Positions 724 to 37,033 of a DNA stretch of 64,000 nt are shown here, piece by piece. The notes under the pieces were generated by a model. The model saw nothing but the letters and a program-made list of their open reading frames with translations. It searched no databases and was not told where the DNA came from. Numbering within the stretch: position 1 is the first letter of the stretch; every line of letters begins with the position of its first letter. A program made the position numbers and the translations under genes. Source of the DNA: Streptomyces sp. NBC_00083 (GTDB taxonomy: Bacteria; Actinomycetota; Actinomycetes; Streptomycetales; Streptomycetaceae); the NCBI RefSeq assembly GCF_026343295.1, contig NZ_JAPELY010000002.1, forward strand, positions 682,001-746,000. Reading direction: 5' to 3'.

Positions 724-1987
724 CCGGCACCCCCTCGGGACCGTGGAACTCCGTCTCGCGCCAGTCGTCGGGCAGCAGGTGGTCGAGTACGTCGTCGACG
801 GTGACCGCGCCGAGCAGGGAGCCGCTGTCGTCCACCACGGGCGCGGCCACCATGTTGTACGCGGCGAGGAAGCTGGTCACCGACGGCAGCGAGGCGTTCG
901 GCGGCAGCGGTTTCAGGTCGCTGTCCACCACCGAGCTGACCAGCGTGAACGGCGGCTCCCGCAGCAGCCGCTGGAAGTGCACCATGCCGAGGTACTTGCC
1001 GGTCGGCGTCTCGTCCGGCGGCCGGCAGACGTAGACCTGTGCGGCGAGCGCCGGCGAGAGGTCCTGCTGGCGCACCCGGGCCAGCGCGTCGGCGACCGTG
1101 GCGTCGGGGCGCAGCACGATCGGCTCGGTCGTCATCAGACCGCCCGCCGTGCGCTCCTCGTACGACAGCAGCCGGCGCACGTCCGCCGCGTCGTCGGGCT
1201 GCATCAGGGTGAGGAGGCGCTCCTTGTCCTCCTCGGGCAGCTCCGAGAGCAGGTCGGCGGCGTCGTCCGGGTCCATCGCCTCCAGGACGTCGGCGGCCCG
1301 CTCGTCCTTCAGCTTGCCGAGGATCTCGACCTGGTCGTCGTCGGGCAGCTCCTCCAGGACGTCGGCGAGCCGGTCGTCATCGAGGGCGGCGGCCACCTCG
1401 GCGCGCCGCTTGGGGGAGAGGTGGTGCATGACGTTGGCGAGGTCCGCGGGGCGCAGCTGCTCGAACGTGGCGACGAGGTTCTCGGCGCCCTGCCCGTGCT
1501 CCTCCAGCGAGAACCCGGTGACGGCCGACCACTCCACGGTGAGCGTCTCGCCCTTGCGCCGCAGCGCGCCCGACTTGCCGCGGCGTACGAAGACCTTGTC
1601 GATCTCCCAGTCGCGACGGGCCGGGAGCTGCTGGATCGCCACGTCGAGCACGGTGACCTGCTCGCCGCTCTCGACCAGCGTGACCCGCCGGTCCAGGAGT
1701 TCGCCCAGCACCAGCCGCTCGGTGGGACGCTGCTCGAACCGGCGCAGGTTGACCACGCCCGTGGTGATGACCTGACCGGACTCCACGCCGGTGACCCGGG
1801 TCATCGGCAGGAAGATGAGCCGGCGGCTCACCACCTCGACGACGATGCCGAGCAGCCTCGGGGGCCGGCGGCCGACCCGCAGCATCGCCACCAGGTCGCG
1901 CACCCGGCCGACCTGGTCGCCGTTGGGGTCGAAGACGGCGACACCGGAGAGGTGGGAGACGAAGACCCGGGGGGCGCCTGCCGCCAT
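710..1987 (-). CDS. Soluble MgtE N-domain plus CBS-pair protein
   Basis: The product has 425 residues. Residues about 5-75 resemble a PRC-barrel-like module (VSHLSGVAVFDPNGDQVGRV). Residues about 150-265 are the MgtE intracellular N-domain, with helical repeats such as LANVMHHLSPKRRAEV and EAMDPDDAADLLSELP. Two CBS domains follow. The magnesium channel (pore) domain of MgtE is absent and there are no membrane segments, so this is a cytosolic sensor-like protein rather than a transporter. I chose the ATG at 1987 because AGGAGG precedes it at normal spacing; an upstream start at 2044 would add 19 residues of low-quality sequence. It is coupled to the DUF1003 gene, and CorA lies 2.5 kb away. Binding of Mg2+ or nucleotide is inferred from the family. 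Confidence 0.9.
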   Translation of the reverse strand: MAAGAPRVFVSHLSGVAVFDPNGDQVGRVRDLVAMLRVGRRPPRLLGIVVEVVSRRLIFLPMTRVTGVESGQVITTGVVNLRRFEQRPTERLVLGELLDRRVTLVESGEQVTVLDVAIQQLPARRDWEIDKVFVRRGKSGALRRKGETLTVEWSAVTGFSLEEHGQGAENLVATFEQLRPADLANVMHHLSPKRRAEVAAALDDDRLADVLEELPDDDQVEILGKLKDERAADVLEAMDPDDAADLLSELPEEDKERLLTLMQPDDAADVRRLLSYEERTAGGLMTTEPIVLRPDATVADALARVRQQDLSPALAAQVYVCRPPDETPTGKYLGMVHFQRLLREPPFTLVSSVVDSDLKPLPPNASLPSVTSFLAAYNMVAAPVVDDSGSLLGAVTVDDVLDHLLPDDWRETEFHGPEGVPDGRH

Positions 1988-2188
1988 GTGAGCGCCTCCT
2001 TCTGTTCCGGGTGTCCCGCGCGTGTCCCACGTGCCGCGATGCACCGCGCGACAAGGGCTTCAGGCTAGCCGGTGGTCGCACGGTACGCCCTTGCGGGTCG
2101 TCCGTACGGCGCCCCGGCGGGCGGCGGCGACCGTGCGGGTAGGGTGCGGTCTGCCGACCCCCACATCCATGCGAGAGGCAGTGCGCAG

Positions 2189-2938
2189 GTGACCTCGCCA
2201 TCCCCCCGGTCCCCGCGGGTACGGGCCCGCCGGGCCGCCCTGTCCCTCGTGCTGTGCGCGGGGCTCGCCGCGGGCCTCACCGCGTGCGGCTCGGATCCGG
2301 ACGAAGGGACCAACGGAGTCGGCAAGCTGTCCGCCCCCGAGATCGAGGACAAGGCGCGGGCCGCGGCCGACGGCGCGGACGCGGTGCGCCTGTCGGGCAC
2401 GCTGGTCAGCAAGGGCGGCTCGTACAAGATCGACATGAAGCTGAAGAGCAGCGGCGCCACGGGCACGGTCACCTCGCAGAAGAGCACGTTCGGGCTGCTG
2501 CGGGTGGGCGAGGACCTGTTCCTGAAGGCGGACGCCGGGTTCTGGGCGCGGGGCGACTCCGGCGGCGCGAGCGCGGCCGCGGGCAAGCTCGACGACAAGT
2601 ACGTCAAGGTGCCGTCGCGCGACCCGGCCTATCTGCAACTGCGCGGGTTCACCGAGAAGACGGTGCTGCTCAAGGGTGTGCTCGGCCTTGAGGGCACGCT
2701 CTCCAAGGGCGACCGCTCCGAGGTCGGCGCGGTCCGTACCGTACGGATCGAGGCGGGCAAGGACGGCGAGGGCGGCACCCTCGACGTCTCCCTCAAGGGC
2801 ACGCCCTACCCCCTGCGCTTCGAGCGGGCCGGCGGGGCGGGCGTCCTCGAACTGGCCGACTGGAACAAGGACTTCACGCTGGCGCCGCCGGCCAAGGACG
2901 CCACCGTGGACTACGGCAAACAGCTCCCGACGACCTAG
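2189..2938 (+). CDS. LppX/LprAFG-like lipoprotein
   Basis: From the GTG at 2189 the product has 249 residues: a basic n-region, a hydrophobic core and the lipobox LTAC (followed by GSDPDEG), so it should be lipid-anchored outside the membrane. The rest is a beta-rich domain (YKIDMKLKSSGATGTV, GLLRVGEDLFLKAD, RTVRIEAGKDGEGGTLDVSL, YPLRFERAGG), like the LppX/LprG fold of actinobacterial lipoproteins that bind lipids. The reading frame is open upstream to 2072, but that would place some 40 arginine-rich residues before the signal peptide. GAGAGG at 2173-2178 supports the GTG. Substrate is unknown. It stands alone between oppositely oriented genes. Confidence 0.82.
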   Translation: MTSPSPRSPRVRARRAALSLVLCAGLAAGLTACGSDPDEGTNGVGKLSAPEIEDKARAAADGADAVRLSGTLVSKGGSYKIDMKLKSSGATGTVTSQKSTFGLLRVGEDLFLKADAGFWARGDSGGASAAAGKLDDKYVKVPSRDPAYLQLRGFTEKTVLLKGVLGLEGTLSKGDRSEVGAVRTVRIEAGKDGEGGTLDVSLKGTPYPLRFERAGGAGVLELADWNKDFTLAPPAKDATVDYGKQLPTT

Positions 2939-2961
2939 GCCCGCGGAACCTGAACCGGGGC

Positions 2962-3471
2962 TCAGCGCCGCTTGCGCTTGAACAGCAGCTTGGGCAGCGC
3001 GGCCGGCACCGGGTGCCGGGTCGTGGCGGGGGACGCCACCGGGGCCGCCGCGAGCGAGCCCTCCGGGGCCGGCGCCAGGGGGCCCTGCGGCGTCAGGCTC
3101 AGCAGGCGGCACTCGGCCGCCCAGCGCGCCGGCATCGCCTCGCCGTCGGGCGCGTTGAGCCGCTTGCCCTTCAGCTCCGCCACCGCCGTGTCCCACGCGG
3201 GGGAGCCCGACGGGATCTCGCGGACGCGGGCCTCCCAGGTCACCAGGCGCCCGCCCTTGTCCTTGGAGCGGACGAGCACCTGCGCCGTGCCGCCGTCCGC
3301 GAGGCCGTCGAGCGGCTGCTCGCCCGGTCCGCCGCCCACGACGTACGCGGCCCCGTCGATCCACGCGTGCCACAGGGCCCGCTCGGCCACCCCGGTGCCG
3401 CGCACCCAGATGAGCCCCGACTTCTTGGTGGCCTCCTCGACAAGGGCCTGGTCGAGCAACGTCTGCGTCAT
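2962..3471 (-). CDS. Conserved protein, possible split-barrel fold
   Basis: This is a 169-residue soluble protein starting MTQTLLDQALVEEATKKSGL. The middle (LIWVRGTGVAERALWHAWIDGAAYVVGGGPGEQPL, then AQVLVRSKDKGGRLVTWEARV) reads as a series of beta strands resembling the pyridoxamine-phosphate-oxidase-like split barrel, but I see no flavin-binding motif that settles it. The C-terminus is proline/alanine-rich and ends in a strongly basic KLLFKRKRR. Two GTG codons three and two codons upstream of the chosen ATG are equally in frame, and no Shine-Dalgarno decides between them. Function is unknown; such proteins are common single-copy genes in Streptomyces. Confidence 0.75.
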   Translation of the reverse strand: MTQTLLDQALVEEATKKSGLIWVRGTGVAERALWHAWIDGAAYVVGGGPGEQPLDGLADGGTAQVLVRSKDKGGRLVTWEARVREIPSGSPAWDTAVAELKGKRLNAPDGEAMPARWAAECRLLSLTPQGPLAPAPEGSLAAAPVASPATTRHPVPAALPKLLFKRKRR

Positions 3472-23682: not shown

Positions 23683-24969
23683 GTGGGACGACACAGCCGA
23701 CCCAAGGAGTCCGGCGAAGCGGCGCCGATACCCCAGGCGCCCCAGGCCCCCGAGGCCGAGCCGGCCGGCGCCTCCGGCAGCGGCCGGCGCAGACGACGGG
23801 CGGACGACGCCCACGACGGACACCACGACACGGCGGGCACCCCCGCCTCCGGCACCCCCCGGGTGCGCGGCGGGCACCCCCAGCACCACGAGGACGGTCC
23901 GGGCGGCGCGGCGGCCCGCTACGGCGACCGGCGCGGCACGCCCCGCCCGGCCCAGCGTGATTCCCGCGACGGCGGAACTCCGCGCATCCCGGGCCCGCGC
24001 CGCTCCTACACCGAGGCCTTCGACGGCCCCGACACCCGGTCCGCCGCGGCGTCGAACACCGTCGCCGTCCCGACGGTCCCGGTGCCCCTGCGCGACGGTC
24101 CGAACGCGCCCGCCGCGAAGGCGAAGGGGTCCCAGGAGACCGGCGCGGCCAAGGCCTCCAAGGTGTCCAAGGGGAGGACGTTCACCGGGATCGCGGCCGC
24201 CGCGGTGACCACCGTGCTCGCGGTCGTCGTCGCGGGCCAGGTCACGTCCGACGACAACCGGCACGACGCCGCGGGACAGTCGGCGGCCGACAAGGGGCGG
24301 GACGACGACGGCTCCGCGTCGCGCGGCAGCGGGCGCTCCACCCCGCAGGCCGCCCCCGCGGTCCTGACGTACGACCAGAAGATGGCCCAGCAGTTCCCGC
24401 TCGACGCCAAGCTCAAGGGCCCCGGCGACTTCGAGACGGTGCCGGGCGCGGCCGCCGCCCCGGGCAAGGGGCGCAAGTACCGCTACCGGGTCGATCTGGA
24501 GAAGGGGCTCGGCCTCGACGGCGCCCTGTTCGCCGAGGCGGTGCAGAAGACGCTCAACGACGACCGCAGCTGGTCGCACAACGGGGCGATGACCTTCGAG
24601 CGGATCTCGTCGGGCAAGCCGGACTTCGTGGTCACCCTGGCGAGCCCCGGCACCACCGGCGTGTGGTGCCAGAAGTCGGGCCTGGACACCACGGAGGACA
24701 ACGTCTCCTGCGACTCCGCCGCCACCGACCGCGTGATGATCAACGCGTTCCGCTGGGCGCAGGGCTCGGAGACCTTCGGCTGGGGCAAGGCGATGGTCGC
24801 GTACCGGCAGATGCTCATCAACCACGAGGTGGGCCACCGCCTCGGGCACAACCACGTGAGCTGCCGCACGCCCGGCGCGCTCGCCCCGGTGATGCAGCAG
24901 CAGACCAAGTCCCTCGACATCGACGGCATCGCCTGCCGGCCCAACCCCTGGGTCTATCCCACGAGTTGA
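23683..24969 (+). CDS. DUF3152 protein, zincin-like extracytoplasmic domain
   Basis: This 428-residue protein has a disordered, charged N-terminal region (1-165). One membrane anchor lies at about 168-190 (TGIAAAAVTTVLAVVVAGQV), then a linker, and a C-terminal DUF3152 domain from about 265. The domain contains NHEVGHRLGHNHVSC, which resembles the HExxHxxGxxH zinc motif of metallopeptidases (here HEVGHRLGHNH), so a secreted-face metalloprotease is plausible; activity has not been shown to my knowledge. Cysteines near WCQKSG, VSCDSA, VSCRTPG and IACRPN could form disulfides outside the cell. It is in an operon with the upstream hydrolase. Mycobacteria carry a homologue in the same place. Confidence 0.9.
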   Translation: MGRHSRPKESGEAAPIPQAPQAPEAEPAGASGSGRRRRRADDAHDGHHDTAGTPASGTPRVRGGHPQHHEDGPGGAAARYGDRRGTPRPAQRDSRDGGTPRIPGPRRSYTEAFDGPDTRSAAASNTVAVPTVPVPLRDGPNAPAAKAKGSQETGAAKASKVSKGRTFTGIAAAAVTTVLAVVVAGQVTSDDNRHDAAGQSAADKGRDDDGSASRGSGRSTPQAAPAVLTYDQKMAQQFPLDAKLKGPGDFETVPGAAAAPGKGRKYRYRVDLEKGLGLDGALFAEAVQKTLNDDRSWSHNGAMTFERISSGKPDFVVTLASPGTTGVWCQKSGLDTTEDNVSCDSAATDRVMINAFRWAQGSETFGWGKAMVAYRQMLINHEVGHRLGHNHVSCRTPGALAPVMQQQTKSLDIDGIACRPNPWVYPTS

Positions 24970-25032: not shown

Positions 25033-25061
25033 TTGACAGTGAACAGCGGTTCGTTCATATT
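25033..25061 (+). promoter_or_regulatory. Consensus promoter for leader peptide and ABC operon
   Basis: TTGACA (25033-25038) is a perfect -35 and CATATT (25056-25061) a good -10, separated by 17 bp. Transcription would start at about 25068-25069, the first base of the leader-peptide ATG. This is the best promoter match in the window. Confidence 0.75.
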
Positions 25062-25068
25062 TCTCGGC

Positions 25069-25164
25069 ATGTCGCACCGTCACGCCACCACCGAACGCGC
25101 CGCCATCGAGCTGGCGCTCATCGGCGTGACCGGGCACAGCGTGGCCGACGTTCTCTGTAGCTGA
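25069..25164 (+). CDS. 31-aa cysteine-containing leader peptide
   Basis: This short ORF reads MSHRHATTERAAIELALIGV and ends ...GHSVADVLCS. It resembles the actinobacterial leader-peptide family catalogued as Ms4533A, in which ribosome stalling at Cys codons near the end is thought to control downstream genes in response to cysteine supply. The only cysteine is the penultimate codon (TGT). The promoter places transcription start on the ATG itself, so translation should be leaderless. The 186 bp between its stop and the binding-protein gene contain a nested stem (25205-25254) that could be the switch. Too short to matter as an enzyme; probably a regulator in cis. Confidence 0.75.
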   Translation: MSHRHATTERAAIELALIGVTGHSVADVLCS

Positions 25165-25204
25165 CGCAGTCCCGAGCGCGTTCGACTCCTTCCTTTTCCC
25201 TTTT

Positions 25205-25254
25205 TGCGCCCGGGTATCGCCGTGCTTCCCGCACGGCCTCCGCACACGGGCGCA
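25205..25254 (+). promoter_or_regulatory. Nested stem, possible attenuator
   Basis: TGCGCCCG (25205-25212) pairs with CGGGCGCA (25247-25254) and encloses a second hairpin, CCGTGC-TTCCC-GCACGG (25220-25236). It follows a pyrimidine-rich stretch ending in five Ts, between the leader peptide and the ABC operon. A conformational switch coupled to leader translation is the natural reading, but alternative pairings were not computed. Confidence 0.4.
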
Positions 25255-25350
25255 GCCACCCCCTCCCCGCCACCCCCTTTCGGTACGGGTCCGGCGCTGC
25301 GGCGCCCGCGTCCGCCGCCTGCCCCGCAGCCACCGAGAGGTCTCCTTCCG

Positions 25351-27081
25351 ATGCGTCACACGTCCCTTTCCCCAGGAAATGTCGCCAGAGCGGCCGCGAT
25401 AGCCGTGGTCCTCGCCGTGGGCGCCGTCGCCTGCGGCCCCGAGGGCGGCGGCGTCGGCAGTGCCGCGTCCGGCGCGTCCGGCACGCCCCACAATGGCGGC
25501 ACGCTCAGCGTCCTCAACAACGAGGCGCAGACCGACTTCGACCCGGCCAGGCTCTACACCTCGGGCGGCGGCAACGTGCCCTCGCTCGTCTTCCGCACCC
25601 TGACCACCCGCAACCGCGAGAACGGCGCCGAGGGCACCAAGGTCGTCCCCGACCTCGCCACCGACACCGGCAGGCCCAACGCCGACGCCACCGTGTGGAC
25701 GTACACGCTCAAGGACGGCCTCACCTACGAGGACGGCAGCCCGATCACCACCGCCGACATCAAGTACGGCATCGAGCGCTCCTTCGCGGCCGAACTCTCC
25801 GGCGGCGCACCGTACTTGAGGGACTGGCTGGTCGGCGGCGCCACCTACGCGGGCCCCTACAAGGACGGCGGCAAGGGCCTCGGCTCCATCGAGACGCCCG
25901 ACGCCAGAACCATCGTGTTCCATCTGAACAAGCCCGAGGGCGAGTTCCCCTTCCTCGCCACCCAGACCCAGTTCGCACCCGTCCCCAAGGCCAAGGACGA
26001 CGGCACCAAGTACGAGGAGCACCCCGTCTCGTCGGGCCCCTACAAGGTGGTCAAGAACGAGAACGACGGCGAGCACCTCGTCCTGGCCCGCAACCCCCAC
26101 TGGTCCGAGGCCACCGACAGCGAGCGCAAGGCCTACCCCGACACCATCGACGTGCGCTCCGGGCTCGATCAGGCCGTCATCAACCAGCGGCTCTCCGCGT
26201 CCCAGGGCCCGGACGCCGCCGCCGTCACCACCGACACCAACCTCGGCCCCGCCGAACTCGCCAAGGTCGGCGGCGACAAGCAGCTCGCCGCGCGCGTCGG
26301 CACCGGCCACTTCGGCTACACCAACTACATCGCGTTCAACCCGAACGTGAAGCCGTTCGACAACCCCAAGGTCCGCCAGGCCATCGCGTACGCCGTCGAC
26401 CGCACCTCCGTCGTCAACGCCGTCGGCGGCTCCTCGCTCGCCGAGCCCGCGACCACCTTCCTGCCGGACCAGAAGGCCTTCGGGTACACCCCGTACGACC
26501 CCTTCCCTGCGGGCCCCTCCGGCAACGCGGACAAGGCCAAGGAGCTGCTCAAGGAGGCCGGTTACGCCGACGGCCTGACCGTCACGCTCACCCACTCCAA
26601 CGCCAAGGGCGGCCCCAAGGGGCCCGAGGTCGCCACCGCCCTCCAGGACGCCCTGAAGAAGGCGGGCATCACCGTCAAGCTCCAGGGCCTCGAAGGCAAC
26701 GACTACAACGACACCGTCGCGAGCGTGACCAAGGAGCCCGGCTTCTTCCTGCGCGGCTGGGGCGCCGACTGGCCCTCCGGCGGCCCCTTCCTCGCGCCCA
26801 TCTTCGACGGCCGCCAGATCGTCAAGGACGGCGCCAACTTCAACACCGGCTTCCTGAACGAGCCGTCCGTCAACACCGAGATCGACGAGATCAACAAGCT
26901 CACCGACCTCGCCGCGGCGGCGCCCCGCTGGGGCGCGCTCGACAAGAGGATCGGCGACCGGGCCGTGGTCGTGCCGCTGTTCCACCCCGTCTACAAGCGC
27001 CTCGTCGGCAAGGACGTCAAGAACGTCGTCATCAGCGACTGGACCGGCGTGCTCGACATCTCGCAGACAGCGGTCAAGTAG
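25351..27081 (+). CDS. ABC importer substrate-binding lipoprotein, SBP family 5
   Basis: This 576-residue protein is a family-5 (oligopeptide/dipeptide/nickel-type) extracytoplasmic binding protein. The signal peptide ends in the lipobox VGAVACG. Family blocks include NNGGTL-like NGGTLSVLNNEAQTDFDPA, VPDLATDTG, WTYTLKDGLTYEDGSPITTAD, DNPKVRQAIAYAVDR, and a late FLRGWGADWPSGGPFLAPIF. It captures a peptide-like or chelated-metal ligand outside the membrane. ATG 25351 follows GAGAGG at ten bases. First structural gene of a four-gene import operon; the leader peptide upstream hints at cysteine- or sulfur-dependent expression. Confidence 0.93.
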   Translation: MRHTSLSPGNVARAAAIAVVLAVGAVACGPEGGGVGSAASGASGTPHNGGTLSVLNNEAQTDFDPARLYTSGGGNVPSLVFRTLTTRNRENGAEGTKVVPDLATDTGRPNADATVWTYTLKDGLTYEDGSPITTADIKYGIERSFAAELSGGAPYLRDWLVGGATYAGPYKDGGKGLGSIETPDARTIVFHLNKPEGEFPFLATQTQFAPVPKAKDDGTKYEEHPVSSGPYKVVKNENDGEHLVLARNPHWSEATDSERKAYPDTIDVRSGLDQAVINQRLSASQGPDAAAVTTDTNLGPAELAKVGGDKQLAARVGTGHFGYTNYIAFNPNVKPFDNPKVRQAIAYAVDRTSVVNAVGGSSLAEPATTFLPDQKAFGYTPYDPFPAGPSGNADKAKELLKEAGYADGLTVTLTHSNAKGGPKGPEVATALQDALKKAGITVKLQGLEGNDYNDTVASVTKEPGFFLRGWGADWPSGGPFLAPIFDGRQIVKDGANFNTGFLNEPSVNTEIDEINKLTDLAAAAPRWGALDKRIGDRAVVVPLFHPVYKRLVGKDVKNVVISDWTGVLDISQTAVK

Positions 27082-27083
27082 CC

Positions 27084-28067
27084 ATGTCAGAAACCCTGTT
27101 GGCCACCGGGGCGGGCGTCGCCGCGCCCGCTCCCGGCGGCCGTCTCTTCTGGCGGCGGCTGCGCGCCCAGCGCGCGGTCACCGCCGCGGCGGCCGTCTTC
27201 GCCCTGCTCGTCCTCGTGGCGCTCGCCGCGCCCCTGCTCACCGCGCTCGAAGGCCAGGACCCCAACGCCTACCACCCCGCCCTCGTCGACTCGGCGAGCG
27301 GCGGCGTGCCCATCGGCCCGTTCGGCGGGATCAGCGGCTCGCACTGGCTCGGCGTCGAACCGGGGACCGGCCGCGACCTGTTCGCCCGCCTCGTCCACGG
27401 CGCCCGCGTCTCGCTCGGCGTCGCCTTCGTGGCCACCCTCATCCAGGTCGCGCTCGGCGTCGGGCTCGGCCTGTTCGCCGCGCTCGGCGGGAGCTGGGCC
27501 GACCAGATCGTCAGCCGCGTCACCGACGTCGCGGCCGCCCTGCCCATGCTCGTCATCACCCTCGGACTGCTCGCCGTGGCCCCCGCGTCCGTCCCGCGCC
27601 CCGTCCTGATCACGCTGATCATCGCCGGGCTCGGCTGGTTCGGCACCTCGAAGATCGTGCGGGCCGCCGCCCTGTCGCTCAAGACCCTCGACCACGTATC
27701 GGCGGCCCGGCTCAGCGGCTGGGGCAGCTGGGCGATCGCCCGCCGCGAGCTGCTCCCCGCGCTCGCGGCCCCCGTGATCACCTACGCCGTGCTGCTCGTC
27801 CCCGGCAACGTGGTGGCCGAGGCGGCCCTGTCCTTCCTCGGGGTGGGCATCAAGCCGCCCACCCCGTCCTGGGGCCAGATGCTCACCGACGCCAACACCT
27901 GGTACCAGGCCGCCCCGACCTATCTGCTCCTGCCGGCCGGGCTCCTCTTCATCACCGTCCTCTCCCTGACGGTGATCGGCGAGGGAGTGCGCACGGCCCT
28001 CGACCCGAGAGCCGCGTCGCGCCTGCGGGCCGGAACCCCCAAGTCCCGCAAGGAAACGGCACGTTGA
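27084..28067 (+). CDS. ABC importer permease, DppC/OppC type
   Basis: The product has 327 residues. An N-terminal cytoplasmic stretch and first membrane helix (AVTAAAAVFALLVLVALAAPLL) precede the periplasmic loop with HWLGVEPGTGRDLFARLVHGAR, a hallmark of OppC-type subunits. Five more helices and the EAA-like coupling loop (HVSAARLSGWGSWAIARREL, then LPALAAPVITYAV) follow. It starts two bases after the binding-protein stop, and its TGA overlaps the next ATG by one base, so expression is coupled. Unusually, this C-type permease precedes the B-type one. Confidence 0.92.
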   Translation: MSETLLATGAGVAAPAPGGRLFWRRLRAQRAVTAAAAVFALLVLVALAAPLLTALEGQDPNAYHPALVDSASGGVPIGPFGGISGSHWLGVEPGTGRDLFARLVHGARVSLGVAFVATLIQVALGVGLGLFAALGGSWADQIVSRVTDVAAALPMLVITLGLLAVAPASVPRPVLITLIIAGLGWFGTSKIVRAAALSLKTLDHVSAARLSGWGSWAIARRELLPALAAPVITYAVLLVPGNVVAEAALSFLGVGIKPPTPSWGQMLTDANTWYQAAPTYLLLPAGLLFITVLSLTVIGEGVRTALDPRAASRLRAGTPKSRKETAR

Positions 28068-29071
28068 TGAACTCCACGGGACTCGCGACCTTCCTCCTGA
28101 AACGGGTCGCCGGAGCCGTCTTCGTGCTCCTCGCCCTCTCGGTCATCGTGTACGCGGTCTTCTACGTCGCCCCCGGCAACGTCGCCCAGATCGTCTGCGG
28201 CGAACGCTGCTCACCGGCGCAAGTCGCCCTGGTGCACGACAAGTTGGGGCTCGGCGACCCGCTGTACCTCCAGTACGCCCACTTCATCCAGGGCATCTTC
28301 GCCGGCCGCGACTTCTCCTCCGGCACCGCGATGGTGCACTGCTCCGCACCCTGCCTCGGGCAGTCCTACCGCACCGACGCACAGGTCACCGACCTCATCC
28401 TCGGCAAGCTCCCCGTCACCGGCTCGCTGGTGGTCGGCGCGTTCGCGCTGTGGCTGCTGATCGGGGTCGGAACGGGAGTGCTCTCCGCGTGGAAGCGCGG
28501 CGGAGCCGTCGAGCGGCTGCTCACCTGGCTGACCCTGGCCGGCACCTCCACTCCGGTGTTCGTCATCGGGCTGCTGCTGATCATCGTCCTCTGCTCCACC
28601 CTGCAGTGGCTGCCGTTCCCGCAGTACGTGCCGTTCACCGACAACCCCGAGCAGTGGTTCTGGGGCCTGCTCCTGCCGTGGTTCTCGCTCGCACTGATCG
28701 AATCGGCCAAGTACGCGCGCCTGACGCGGAGTTCGATGCTGGAGACGCTCGCCGAGGACCATGTGCGCACGTTCCGGGCGTACGGGCTCACCGAGCGGGC
28801 GATCGTCGGGCGGCACGCGCTGCGCGGCGCGGTCGCCCCGGTCATCGCGCTCAGCGCACTCGACGCGGGCACGATGTTCGGCAGCGCGGTGCTCACCGAA
28901 ACGCTCTTCGGCATCCCCGGCATCGGGCGCCAGCTCGTGGAGTCGGTGCGCACGGTCGACCTGCCGGTGGTGGTCGGCGTGGTCCTGACCACCGGATTCT
29001 TCGTGGTGCTCGCCAATACCGTCGCGGACGTCCTGTACGCGATGGCGGACCGACGGGTGGTGCTCTCATGA
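28067..29071 (+). CDS. ABC importer permease, DppB/OppB type
   Basis: This 334-residue OppB-type permease has an N-terminal helix (FLLKRVAGAVFVLLALSVIVYAVFYVAPGN), a large external loop with four cysteines (CGERCSP, VHCSAPCLG), and then five helices. The coupling loop is YARLTRSSMLETLAEDHVRT followed by FRAYGLTERAIVGRHALRGA. The extra cysteines in the external loop are not typical of OppB and may form a disulfide. ATG 28067 overlaps the previous stop; a TTG one codon earlier is possible. Overlaps the ATPase gene by ATGA. Confidence 0.92.
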   Translation: MNSTGLATFLLKRVAGAVFVLLALSVIVYAVFYVAPGNVAQIVCGERCSPAQVALVHDKLGLGDPLYLQYAHFIQGIFAGRDFSSGTAMVHCSAPCLGQSYRTDAQVTDLILGKLPVTGSLVVGAFALWLLIGVGTGVLSAWKRGGAVERLLTWLTLAGTSTPVFVIGLLLIIVLCSTLQWLPFPQYVPFTDNPEQWFWGLLLPWFSLALIESAKYARLTRSSMLETLAEDHVRTFRAYGLTERAIVGRHALRGAVAPVIALSALDAGTMFGSAVLTETLFGIPGIGRQLVESVRTVDLPVVVGVVLTTGFFVVLANTVADVLYAMADRRVVLS

Positions 29072-30765
29072 CGCCGATTCCTGATGCGGAGCCGCTGGTC
29101 GAAGTGACCGACCTCGGCATCTCCTTCGGCGGGGTACGCGCCGTCGACGGCCTCTCCTTCACACTCCGGCCCGGCGCGGCGCTGGGGGTCGTCGGTGAAT
29201 CCGGCTCCGGCAAGAGCGCGTCGGCGTACGCGCTGCTCGGCCTCCACCGGGGCACGGGGGCGCGGGTCACCGGCGCGGTCCGGGTGGCCGGGGTGGATGT
29301 CGGGTCGGCCTCCGACGCCGAACTCCGCGCACTGCGCGGCGGGTTGGCGGCCATGGTCTTCCAGGACCCGCTCTCCTCGCTCGACCCCTACTACACGATC
29401 GGCGACCAGATCGCCGAGGTGTACCGGGTGCACAAGGGCGGCTCGCGGCGGGCGGCCCGAGCGCGCGCGGTCTCGGTCCTCGACCGGGTCGGGATCCCCG
29501 ACGCGGCCCGCAAGTCCCGGGCGCGGCCGCACGAGTTCAGCGGCGGCATGCGGCAGCGGGCGCTCATCGCGATGGCGCTGGCGTGCGAGCCGCGGCTGCT
29601 GATCGCCGACGAACCGACGACCGCGCTCGACGTGACCGTCCAGGCGCAGATCCTGGACCTCCTGCACGACCTGCGCCGCGAGACGGGCCTCGGCCTGCTC
29701 CTGGTCACCCACGACGTGGGAGTGGCGGCGGAGAGCGTGTCCGATGTGCTGGTGATGCGGGCGGGCAGGGAGGTGGAGCGGGGACCGGTCGAGACGGTCC
29801 TGACGGCGCCGAGAGAGCCGTACACGCGGGCACTCCTGGCGGCAGTCCCGCAACTGTCCCCGGCTCAGCCCCCGGCCCAGCCCCCGGCGGGGCCCGGCCA
29901 TCCGGCGTCCCCGGCCCGTCCGGCGTTCGAGGACGAGCGCCCGTCAGGCGCGAACGGGGTCCGGGGCGGAGCTCCGGCAGGCAGACCCGTCATCGAAGCC
30001 CTCGGCGTCAGCCGGGCGTTCGGGCGGGGCCGGGCCGCGTTCCGGGCGGTCGACGACGTCACCCTCACCCTCCACCCCGGACAGACCCTCGGCATCGTCG
30101 GCGAGAGCGGCAGCGGCAAGACCACCCTCGGCCGCATGCTCGTCGGGCTCCTGGAACCGAGCGCCGGGCGCGTCACCCGTACCGGCTCCGTGCAGATGGT
30201 CTTCCAGGACCCCGTCTCCTCCCTCAACCCCCGCCGCTCGATCGGCGAATCCGTCGCCGACCCCCTGCGCGCCGCCGGCGGGCGCGACGAGGCCCGCATC
30301 CGCGCCCGCGTCGCCGAACTCCTCACCCGGGTAGGGCTCGACCCGGACCGGTACGACGGCTACCCGCACGAGTTCAGCGGCGGCCAGCGCCAGCGCGTGG
30401 GCATCGCGCGGGCCCTCGCCGCCGAGCCGCGGCTCATCGTCTGCGACGAACCCGTGTCGGCGCTCGACGTCACCACCCAGGCCCAGGTCATCGCGCTGCT
30501 CGGCGAGTTGCAGCGGGAACTCGGCCTCGCGCTGGTCTTCATAGCCCACGACCTCGCCGTCGTGCGGCAGGTCAGCGACCGCGTGGCCGTGATGCGCCGG
30601 GGCCGGATCGTGGAGGAGGGGGAGGCGGACGTGGTGTACGGGGCGCCGAAGGACCCGTACACCCGGCAGCTGCTCGCCGCCGTCCCCTCCCTCGACCCCG
30701 CAAGGGCCGCCGCCCGCCGGGCCGCACGCCGCACGCCGCCGCGCGAGGAGGTACCCGTGGCGTAG
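29068..30765 (+). CDS. Fused double ABC ATPase, OppD-OppF type
   Basis: The product has 565 residues with two complete nucleotide-binding domains. Domain 1 (about 10-255): Walker A GESGSGKSA, signature FSGGMRQRA, Walker B LLIADEPTTALD. Domain 2 (about 310-540): GESGSGKTTL, FSGGQRQRVG, LIVCDEPVSALD. Each ends with a PYTRALLAAVP/PYTRQLLAAVP motif of the oligopeptide-importer C-terminal region. OppD and OppF are usually separate; here they are one chain. The linker (about residues 272-308) is encoded by a copy of the dispersed intergenic repeat (29911-29979). Last gene of the import operon. Confidence 0.93.
   Translation: MTPIPDAEPLVEVTDLGISFGGVRAVDGLSFTLRPGAALGVVGESGSGKSASAYALLGLHRGTGARVTGAVRVAGVDVGSASDAELRALRGGLAAMVFQDPLSSLDPYYTIGDQIAEVYRVHKGGSRRAARARAVSVLDRVGIPDAARKSRARPHEFSGGMRQRALIAMALACEPRLLIADEPTTALDVTVQAQILDLLHDLRRETGLGLLLVTHDVGVAAESVSDVLVMRAGREVERGPVETVLTAPREPYTRALLAAVPQLSPAQPPAQPPAGPGHPASPARPAFEDERPSGANGVRGGAPAGRPVIEALGVSRAFGRGRAAFRAVDDVTLTLHPGQTLGIVGESGSGKTTLGRMLVGLLEPSAGRVTRTGSVQMVFQDPVSSLNPRRSIGESVADPLRAAGGRDEARIRARVAELLTRVGLDPDRYDGYPHEFSGGQRQRVGIARALAAEPRLIVCDEPVSALDVTTQAQVIALLGELQRELGLALVFIAHDLAVVRQVSDRVAVMRRGRIVEEGEADVVYGAPKDPYTRQLLAAVPSLDPARAAARRAARRTPPREEVPVA
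29911..29979 (-). repeat. Dispersed repeat copy inside ABC ATPase linker
   Basis: This stretch matches, in reverse orientation, the composite repeat at 7047-7113. By eye there are about ten differences and one gap over roughly 67 positions; the shared blocks include GCCCGTCCGGCG, GAGGACGAG and GGGGCGGAGC. In frame it encodes ARPAFEDERPSGANGVRGGA, which joins the two ATPase domains. Confidence 0.85.
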
Positions 30766-35854: not shown

Positions 35855-37033
35855 GTGTCGCTGCCACCCCTGGTCGAGCCAGCAGCTGAGCTCACCGTAG
35901 ACGAGGTCCGCAGGTATTCGCGCCACCTGATCATCCCCGACGTCGGGATGGACGGGCAGAAGCGGCTGAAGAACGCGAAGGTGCTCGCCGTGGGCGCCGG
36001 CGGTCTCGGCTCCCCGGCCCTGATGTACCTGGCCGCCGCCGGTGTCGGCACGCTCGGCATCGTGGAGTTCGACGAGGTCGACGAGTCGAACCTCCAGCGC
36101 CAGATCATCCACAGCCAGGCCGACATCGGCCGCTCCAAGGCGGAGTCCGCGCGTGACTCCGTGCTCGGCATCAACCCGTACGTGAACGTGGTCCTGCACG
36201 AAGAGCGGCTCGAAGCCGAGAACGTGATGGACATCTTCAGCCAGTACGACCTGATCGTCGACGGCACGGACAACTTCGCGACCCGTTACCTGGTCAACGA
36301 CGCGTGCGTGCTGCTCAACAAGCCGTACGTGTGGGGTTCGATCTACCGCTTCGACGGCCAGGCCTCGGTGTTCTGGTCCGAGCACGGCCCCTGCTACCGC
36401 TGCCTCTACCCGGAGCCCCCGCCGCCGGGCATGGTTCCGAGCTGCGCCGAGGGCGGCGTGCTGGGCGTGCTCTGCGCGTCCATCGGTTCCATCCAGGTCA
36501 ACGAGGCGATCAAGCTCCTCGCGGGCATCGGCGAGCCGCTGGTCGGCCGTCTGATGATCTACGACGCCCTGGAGATGCAGTACCGCCAGGTCAAGGTCCG
36601 CAAGGACCCGAACTGCGCGGTCTGCGGCGAGAACCCGACCGTCACCGAACTCATCGACTACGAGGCCTTCTGCGGCGTCGTGTCCGAGGAGGCCCAGGAA
36701 GCGGCCATGGGTTCGACGATCACTCCCAAGCAGCTCAAGGAGTGGATCGACGCGGACGAGAAGATCGAGATCATCGACGTCCGCGAGCCGAACGAGTACG
36801 AGATCGTCTCGATCCCGGGCGCCAAGCTGATCCCGAAGAACGAGTTCCTGATGGGCACGGCCCTCCAGTCGATGCCCCAGGACAAGCGCATCGTCCTGCA
36901 CTGCAAGACGGGCGTCCGCTCCGCGGAGGTCCTCGCGGTCCTCAAGTCGGCGGGCTTCTCGGACGCGGTCCACGTGGGCGGCGGCGTGATCGGCTGGGTC
37001 AACCAGATCGAACCGGAGAAGCCGATCTACTGA
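35855..37033 (+). CDS. moeZ: MoeZ: adenylyltransferase/sulfurtransferase
   Basis: This 392-residue MoeB/ThiF-type protein is fused to a rhodanese domain. Residues 15-270: RYSRHLIIPDVGMDGQ, the ATP-binding GAGGLGSPALMYLAAAGVG, NLQRQIIH, and the zinc CxxC pairs CYRC and CAVC. Residues about 290-392: rhodanese with the persulfide cysteine in LHCKTGVRS. It adenylates and thiolates small carrier proteins (MoaD2 for molybdenum cofactor; CysO and ThiS-type for cysteine and thiamine). The nar operon encoded 11 kb on would need that cofactor. GTG start behind ACGGAG; 63 bp after the spherulin-4 gene, ending in a terminator. Confidence 0.96.
   Translation: MSLPPLVEPAAELTVDEVRRYSRHLIIPDVGMDGQKRLKNAKVLAVGAGGLGSPALMYLAAAGVGTLGIVEFDEVDESNLQRQIIHSQADIGRSKAESARDSVLGINPYVNVVLHEERLEAENVMDIFSQYDLIVDGTDNFATRYLVNDACVLLNKPYVWGSIYRFDGQASVFWSEHGPCYRCLYPEPPPPGMVPSCAEGGVLGVLCASIGSIQVNEAIKLLAGIGEPLVGRLMIYDALEMQYRQVKVRKDPNCAVCGENPTVTELIDYEAFCGVVSEEAQEAAMGSTITPKQLKEWIDADEKIEIIDVREPNEYEIVSIPGAKLIPKNEFLMGTALQSMPQDKRIVLHCKTGVRSAEVLAVLKSAGFSDAVHVGGGVIGWVNQIEPEKPIY

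Follow-up and report, generated by a model that had tools for sequence, protein, structure and literature searches.

Leaderless short ORFs with polycysteine stretches have been described in mycobacteria (Canestrari et al. 2020, as cited in PMC9094748 and PMC13236596), and candidate cys leader peptides were reported in 2005 for Mycobacterium, Propionibacterium and Bifidobacterium (PMC1262725). Such leader peptides are already covered by the NCBI model NF042937 (Ms4533A-family Cys leader). The locus described here lies within a window of 64,000 nucleotides (the whole stretch of DNA that was analysed) of a 7.8-Mb Streptomyces genome, and consists of a leader of this type followed by a peptide-type ABC importer operon. 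The window leader and the Ms4533A family have in common the leaderless geometry, the UGU Cys codon just before the stop codon and a compound hairpin followed by a hairpin over the Cys and stop codons. However, the window leader differs in having one Cys instead of a Cys run, its operon encodes a peptide-type importer whereas the mycobacterial counterpart is a sulfate importer, and its two downstream structures (the nested stem P2 and a hairpin over the Shine-Dalgarno sequence, SD, described below) are not alike in sequence. When mycobacteria-like leaders were folded, a comparable compound hairpin was found and, in most of them, a Cys-Arg-stop stem of different sequence. The Ms4527A family (NF042936) resembles the window leader in that a short ORF, with UGU close to its stop codon, precedes sulfur genes, and single-Cys examples occur in the window genome, but it has the peptide core RRHVDL.RV, and the matches in the window genome are all below the NF042936 cut-off. 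Similarly, the leaders of PMC1262725 have Cys codons near the stop codon and no obvious terminator, but they contain Cys runs, and neither Streptomyces nor peptide-type importers were reported there. No report of such a leader in front of this operon type was found in the open, non-subscription literature searched. The type of switch is already known; its placement before a peptide-type importer and its fine structure look unreported.

The leader ORF (MSHRHATTERAAIELALIGVTGHSVADVLCS; 25069..25164, + strand, as are the promoter, RNA elements and operon genes given below) comprises 31 codons and a stop codon (25162-25164). It matches NF042937 with 49.6 bits over residues 1-30 of 31, the cut-off of the model being 31 bits. 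The resemblance to Ms4533A-type leaders, which the preliminary description of this DNA had put forward, is thus a true family match to a curated HMM, and the 31-codon ORF with its sole Cys (TGT) in the penultimate codon was found as claimed, the Cys codon being located at 25156-25158. A scan of the window with Rfam 15, which includes riboswitches, T-boxes and attenuators, gave no match at gathering score. A weak match to the leader family in one other genome (G121) was judged apparently spurious.

A single promoter-like site, TTGACA-N17-CATATT (25033..25061), was detected between coordinates 24950 and 25360 (shuffles: mean 0.0). It consists of TTGACA at 25033-25038, a spacer of 17 and CATATT at 25056-25061, and is separated from the leader ATG (25069) by seven bases, which makes this ATG the predicted first transcribed base. 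The same promoter, identical at 12 of 12 positions and at the same distance from the ATG, is found in 109 of the 173 unique leaders of the same genus, and most of the remaining leaders retain a near match to it. The proposal that the promoter places the transcription start on the ATG thus agrees with the exact spacing present, and the fixed distance is the strongest argument for a leaderless transcript that sequences can provide before RNA 5' ends are mapped.

The leader is conserved upstream of the importer. The binding protein of the window is 93-94% identical to its counterparts in S. violascens and S. xanthochromogenes, and an ortholog (at least 73% identity) is present in 71 of 150 same-genus genomes, all 71 of which also contain the leader. 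The leader is located directly 5' of the binding-protein gene in all 70 loci read out, and was present at 79 of the 80 loci from named Streptomyces and Kitasatospora strains; the search for a conserved ORF upstream of orthologous operons, suggested in the preliminary description as a check, was therefore positive. Directly 5' of the leader, the window encodes a DUF3152 protein (23683-24969) with a zinc-protease-like motif, HEVGHRLGH, and the same upstream neighbour is found at many orthologous loci. At one locus (L306 in G079, a genome 78% complete), the leader is intact and the binding-protein gene is apparently internally deleted, with only residues 154-321 matched.

The regulatory Cys codon, TGT at codon 30 (25156..25158), is invariant in relatives and is the last Cys codon in all 173 unique leaders. 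The Cys codons of the binding-protein orthologs from the same genomes amount to 69 TGC and 1 TGT, and those of 11 window genes to 33 TGC and 1 TGT. TGT is also used in the mycobacteria-like leaders of the same family and in the Ms4527A-like leaders of the window genome. An earlier Cys, immediately 5' of VAD, is variable: it is present in 48 of 70 leaders, mostly as TGC, and is replaced by Ser in the window leader. One Cys is found in 43 of the 173 unique leaders and two or more in 130; the window leader belongs to the former and does not contain the run of at least two Cys codons that characterizes polycysteine attenuators, which counts against its reading as a cysteine attenuator. Two readings of the fixed UGU may be considered, as it could be kept either for its pairing with an upstream GAC codon in the hairpin H1 or because a wobble-read UGU would provide a more sensitive stall site.

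Three helices with conserved pairing were identified within the ORF. Helix Pa (25079..25130) is formed by GTCACGCC (25079-25086) and GGCGTGAC (25123-25130), the partners being variable codons near the N-terminus and the conserved GGC-GTG-AC codons; it encloses the inner stem Pb (25097-25103 with 25110-25117), which uses CTG-GCG. Hairpin H1 (25146..25160) lies over the Cys codon; its arms are CGACA/UGUCG in most relatives, whereas the window version, CGACG/UGUAG, contains one mismatch. Over the 173 leaders, Pa, Pb and H1 are paired in 89%, 94% and 97%, respectively, compared to maxima of 0.52, 0.50 and 0.71 in slid-helix controls, and six double compensatory events were counted for the Pa pair 16-60. 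In 61 diverse leaders, 89.9% of the helix set is paired vs a slid maximum of 46.8%, and the covariation score is higher than in all 500 shuffles, a control that leaves relatedness in. However, a stricter, approximate R-scape-like tree-aware test of all column pairs gave no significant pair, and RNAalifold applied to the ORF alignment found H1 and preferred a small alternative hairpin over Pa and Pb. As a result, the structural claims rest on the named helices with their slid and shuffled controls, and, given the outcome of the tree-aware scan and of RNAalifold, Pa and Pb are considered well supported but not proven.

In the gap between the leader and the binding-protein gene, the nested stem noted earlier, here named P2 (25205..25254), is present with exact arms. 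It is formed by TGCGCCCG (25205-25212) and CGGGCGCA (25247-25254) around GCCGTGC (25219-25225) and GCACGGC (25231-25237), and its arms are retained, with small changes allowed, in six close relatives. P2 was rejected as a terminator in the window for its lack of a U-tract, and a search of the window for a terminator-like site found none. Probably more telling than P2 is a second hairpin (25276..25340), in which the SD of the binding-protein gene (GAGAGG, 25335-25340) is predicted to be sequestered by pairing of CCUUUCGGU (25276-25284) with ACCGAGAGG (25332-25340). The predicted probability of SD pairing is 0.71-0.99 in the window. All six close relatives likewise have a largely paired SD, with probabilities mostly >0.9, and in five of them it lies in an extended hairpin of ~16-19 bp. 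The conservation of this hairpin, together with the lack of a terminator in the clade of the window, points to translational control. The route from the stalled ribosome to the SD was addressed by two computations. When 169 leader-gene regions were folded at equilibrium under the constraint of a ribosome footprint over the Cys codon, the SD was not relieved (mean 0.04 kcal/mol) and a coupling of the stall to the nested stem gained no support, and the energy required to open the SD in genus-wide relatives was not higher than in dinucleotide-shuffled gaps. As neither computation supports a simple switch, the coupling of the stall to the SD is retained as a putative step.

The same cysteine sensor could alternatively act on transcription, with the stall choosing between a terminator, either intrinsic or Rho-dependent, and an antiterminator located 3' of the leader. 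Terminator-like stems with U-tracts are present in the gap in 60 of 169 relatives vs 13% of shuffles. In a large subgroup of relatives, named group B (e.g. L011 and L065), a CCGUGACC..GGUCACGG hairpin followed by a U-run lies between the leader and the gene; this hairpin is 82% paired, with 6 double compensatory events, and in the same subgroup GACGACC additionally forms 7 bp with the SD side. Furthermore, Rho-dependence has been suggested for the mycobacterial cys leaders (PMC1262725). However, with neither a terminator-like site nor a U-tract after P2 in the window, and with the SD hairpin retained by its close relatives in place of the group B terminator-like hairpin, which is absent from this clade, transcriptional control is considered rather unlikely at this locus. 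The mode of attenuation may have switched within the genus. As the relatives differ in their gap structures, the downstream half of the switch seems to evolve fast, while the leader stays fixed.

The locus thus probably holds an Ms4533A-family cysteine sensor that is leaderless and read by ribosomes, and that controls a dipeptide/oligopeptide-type ABC importer for sulfur supply via the SD hairpin. Transcription would start on the ATG of the 31-codon leader ORF. When Cys-tRNA(Cys) is plentiful, ribosomes would pass the UGU codon, the SD would be locked in the 25276-25340 hairpin and translation of the binding protein would be low, whereas under cysteine shortage the UGU codon, next but one to the stop codon, would make ribosomes stall, the leader-gene RNA would presumably refold and the importer would be made. 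The response to cysteine, the refolding step, translation as the controlled step and the sulfur-containing cargo are the parts of this scheme that we infer.

The importer operon comprises four genes. The first encodes a substrate-binding lipoprotein of the SBP_bac_5 type (25351..27081; Pfam PF00496, 254 bits), followed by two permeases, one of Opp/Gsi C/D type (27078..28067; NCBIfam Opp4C/GsiD matches below cut-off) and one of Opp/Gsi B/C type (28064..29071; Opp2B/GsiC matches below cut-off), and by a fused two-domain GsiA-like ATPase (29068..30765), in which PF00005 is found twice and the GsiA match is below the equivalog cut-off. The top NCBIfam match of the binding protein is GsiB-like and below cut-off, and its OppA-like matches are also below the equivalog cut-offs. 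The equivalog scores of the glutathione importer GsiABCD are not reached, with 89 of 594 bits for GsiB and 512 of 1077 bits for GsiA. The structure that AlphaFold predicted for the binding protein was of low quality (pLDDT 49) and was left unused. The presence of a known cysteine-switch leader at the start of the operon suggests that the importer serves sulfur supply, and a sulfur-containing peptide, e.g. Cys- or glutathione-like, is a plausible cargo. About 5 kb 3' of the operon, the window encodes a ThiF-Rhodanese protein (35855-37033; MoeZ-like sulfur-carrier activation).

The leader might also sense cysteine in front of an importer whose cargo has nothing to do with sulfur nutrition and is, for instance, a precursor or a peptide signal. 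The PDB chain nearest to the binding protein, at 283.7 bits, is 2wok, OppA2 from the clavulanic acid cluster, with which it has the WGAD motif in common, and this, as well as the Gsi-type scores all under the equivalog cut-offs, would be consistent with such a cargo. On the other hand, the other Ms4533A- and Ms4527A-type leaders with an identified downstream gene precede sulfur genes, the exceptions being one oxygenase-like gene (L298) and one unassigned case (L296), and a cargo of another kind is therefore regarded as quite unlikely. In one family (f4), an Ms4533A-type leader precedes a gene that passes TIGR00971 (sulfate-binding protein); we take this family to represent mycobacteria and relatives. 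A third operon type is provided by family f18 (L309 in G313, ~1488-3071), in which an Ms4533A-like leader, scoring 29.9 bits and hence just under the NF042937 cut-off, is located 5' of an arylsulfatase-like gene. In the window genome itself, Ms4527A-like leaders with UGU precede genes resembling those for sulfite/nitrite reductase, SsuD (alkanesulfonate monooxygenase), SsuC and SfnB/DszC. Five leaders of this genome (L297, L298, L299, L300 and L301) are Ms4527A-like with scores below the family cut-off; several have a single Cys, all use TGT, and sulfur genes and the oxygenase-like gene lie downstream of them. They may belong to a larger cysteine-leader network in Streptomyces.

A relic of the locus was found in one genome (L313 in G671, reverse complement of 1501-1876), where a deletion reaching from the SD to near the C-terminus of the ATPase has removed the importer operon. 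What remains is the DUF3152 gene, followed by the leader with the SD, some 50 C-terminal residues of the ATPase and the adjoining glycosyltransferase gene, and the best other binding protein of this genome is 43% identical. In this leader both Cys positions are lost, the Cys codon now being CGC, and the ATG of the binding-protein gene has become CTG, which suggests that loss of the importer was followed by decay of the Cys codon. Together with the sulfur genes behind related leaders, the relic links the importer both to the Cys codon and to sulfur. The earlier suggestion that the importer brings in a sulfur source draws support from these comparisons, as the leader family also occurs before sulfate-importer genes and the relic has no Cys codon.

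That the ORF instead gives rise to a small protein with a function of its own, and is conserved for this function and not for attenuation, might be argued from the strong conservation of the amino acids ELALIGV....VAD..C across distant genera, but is highly improbable, as the conserved blocks overlap the RNA stems, codon choice is fixed at synonymous sites (UGU 100%, CTG 96%, GCG 98%, GTG 96%), the pairing partners in variable codons stay complementary, and the first Cys is dispensable whereas the last is not.

Beyond the cysteine sensor itself, we tentatively propose, as a possibility, that the leader is a portable RNA cassette, consisting of a leaderless ORF with internal structure in which the rare UGU codon is obligatory, and that sulfur operons without homology to each other, encoding a sulfate importer, a peptide-type importer or a sulfatase, have either retained or captured it at their 5' side. 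UGU would be obligatory through RNA pairing or a sharper stall, and the cassette would here mark an importer of organosulfur compounds or peptides that is widespread in Streptomyces and has gone unrecognised. If the sensor acts as proposed, approximately half of the sampled Streptomyces genomes would hold a cysteine-repressed peptide-type importer with a predictable sulfur-source cargo, which would provide a testable cargo assignment for a transporter class mostly left without one. The fixed UGU and the RNA structure within the ORF would offer handles on how, in a high-GC bacterium, an operon is controlled by ribosomes stalling at just one codon.
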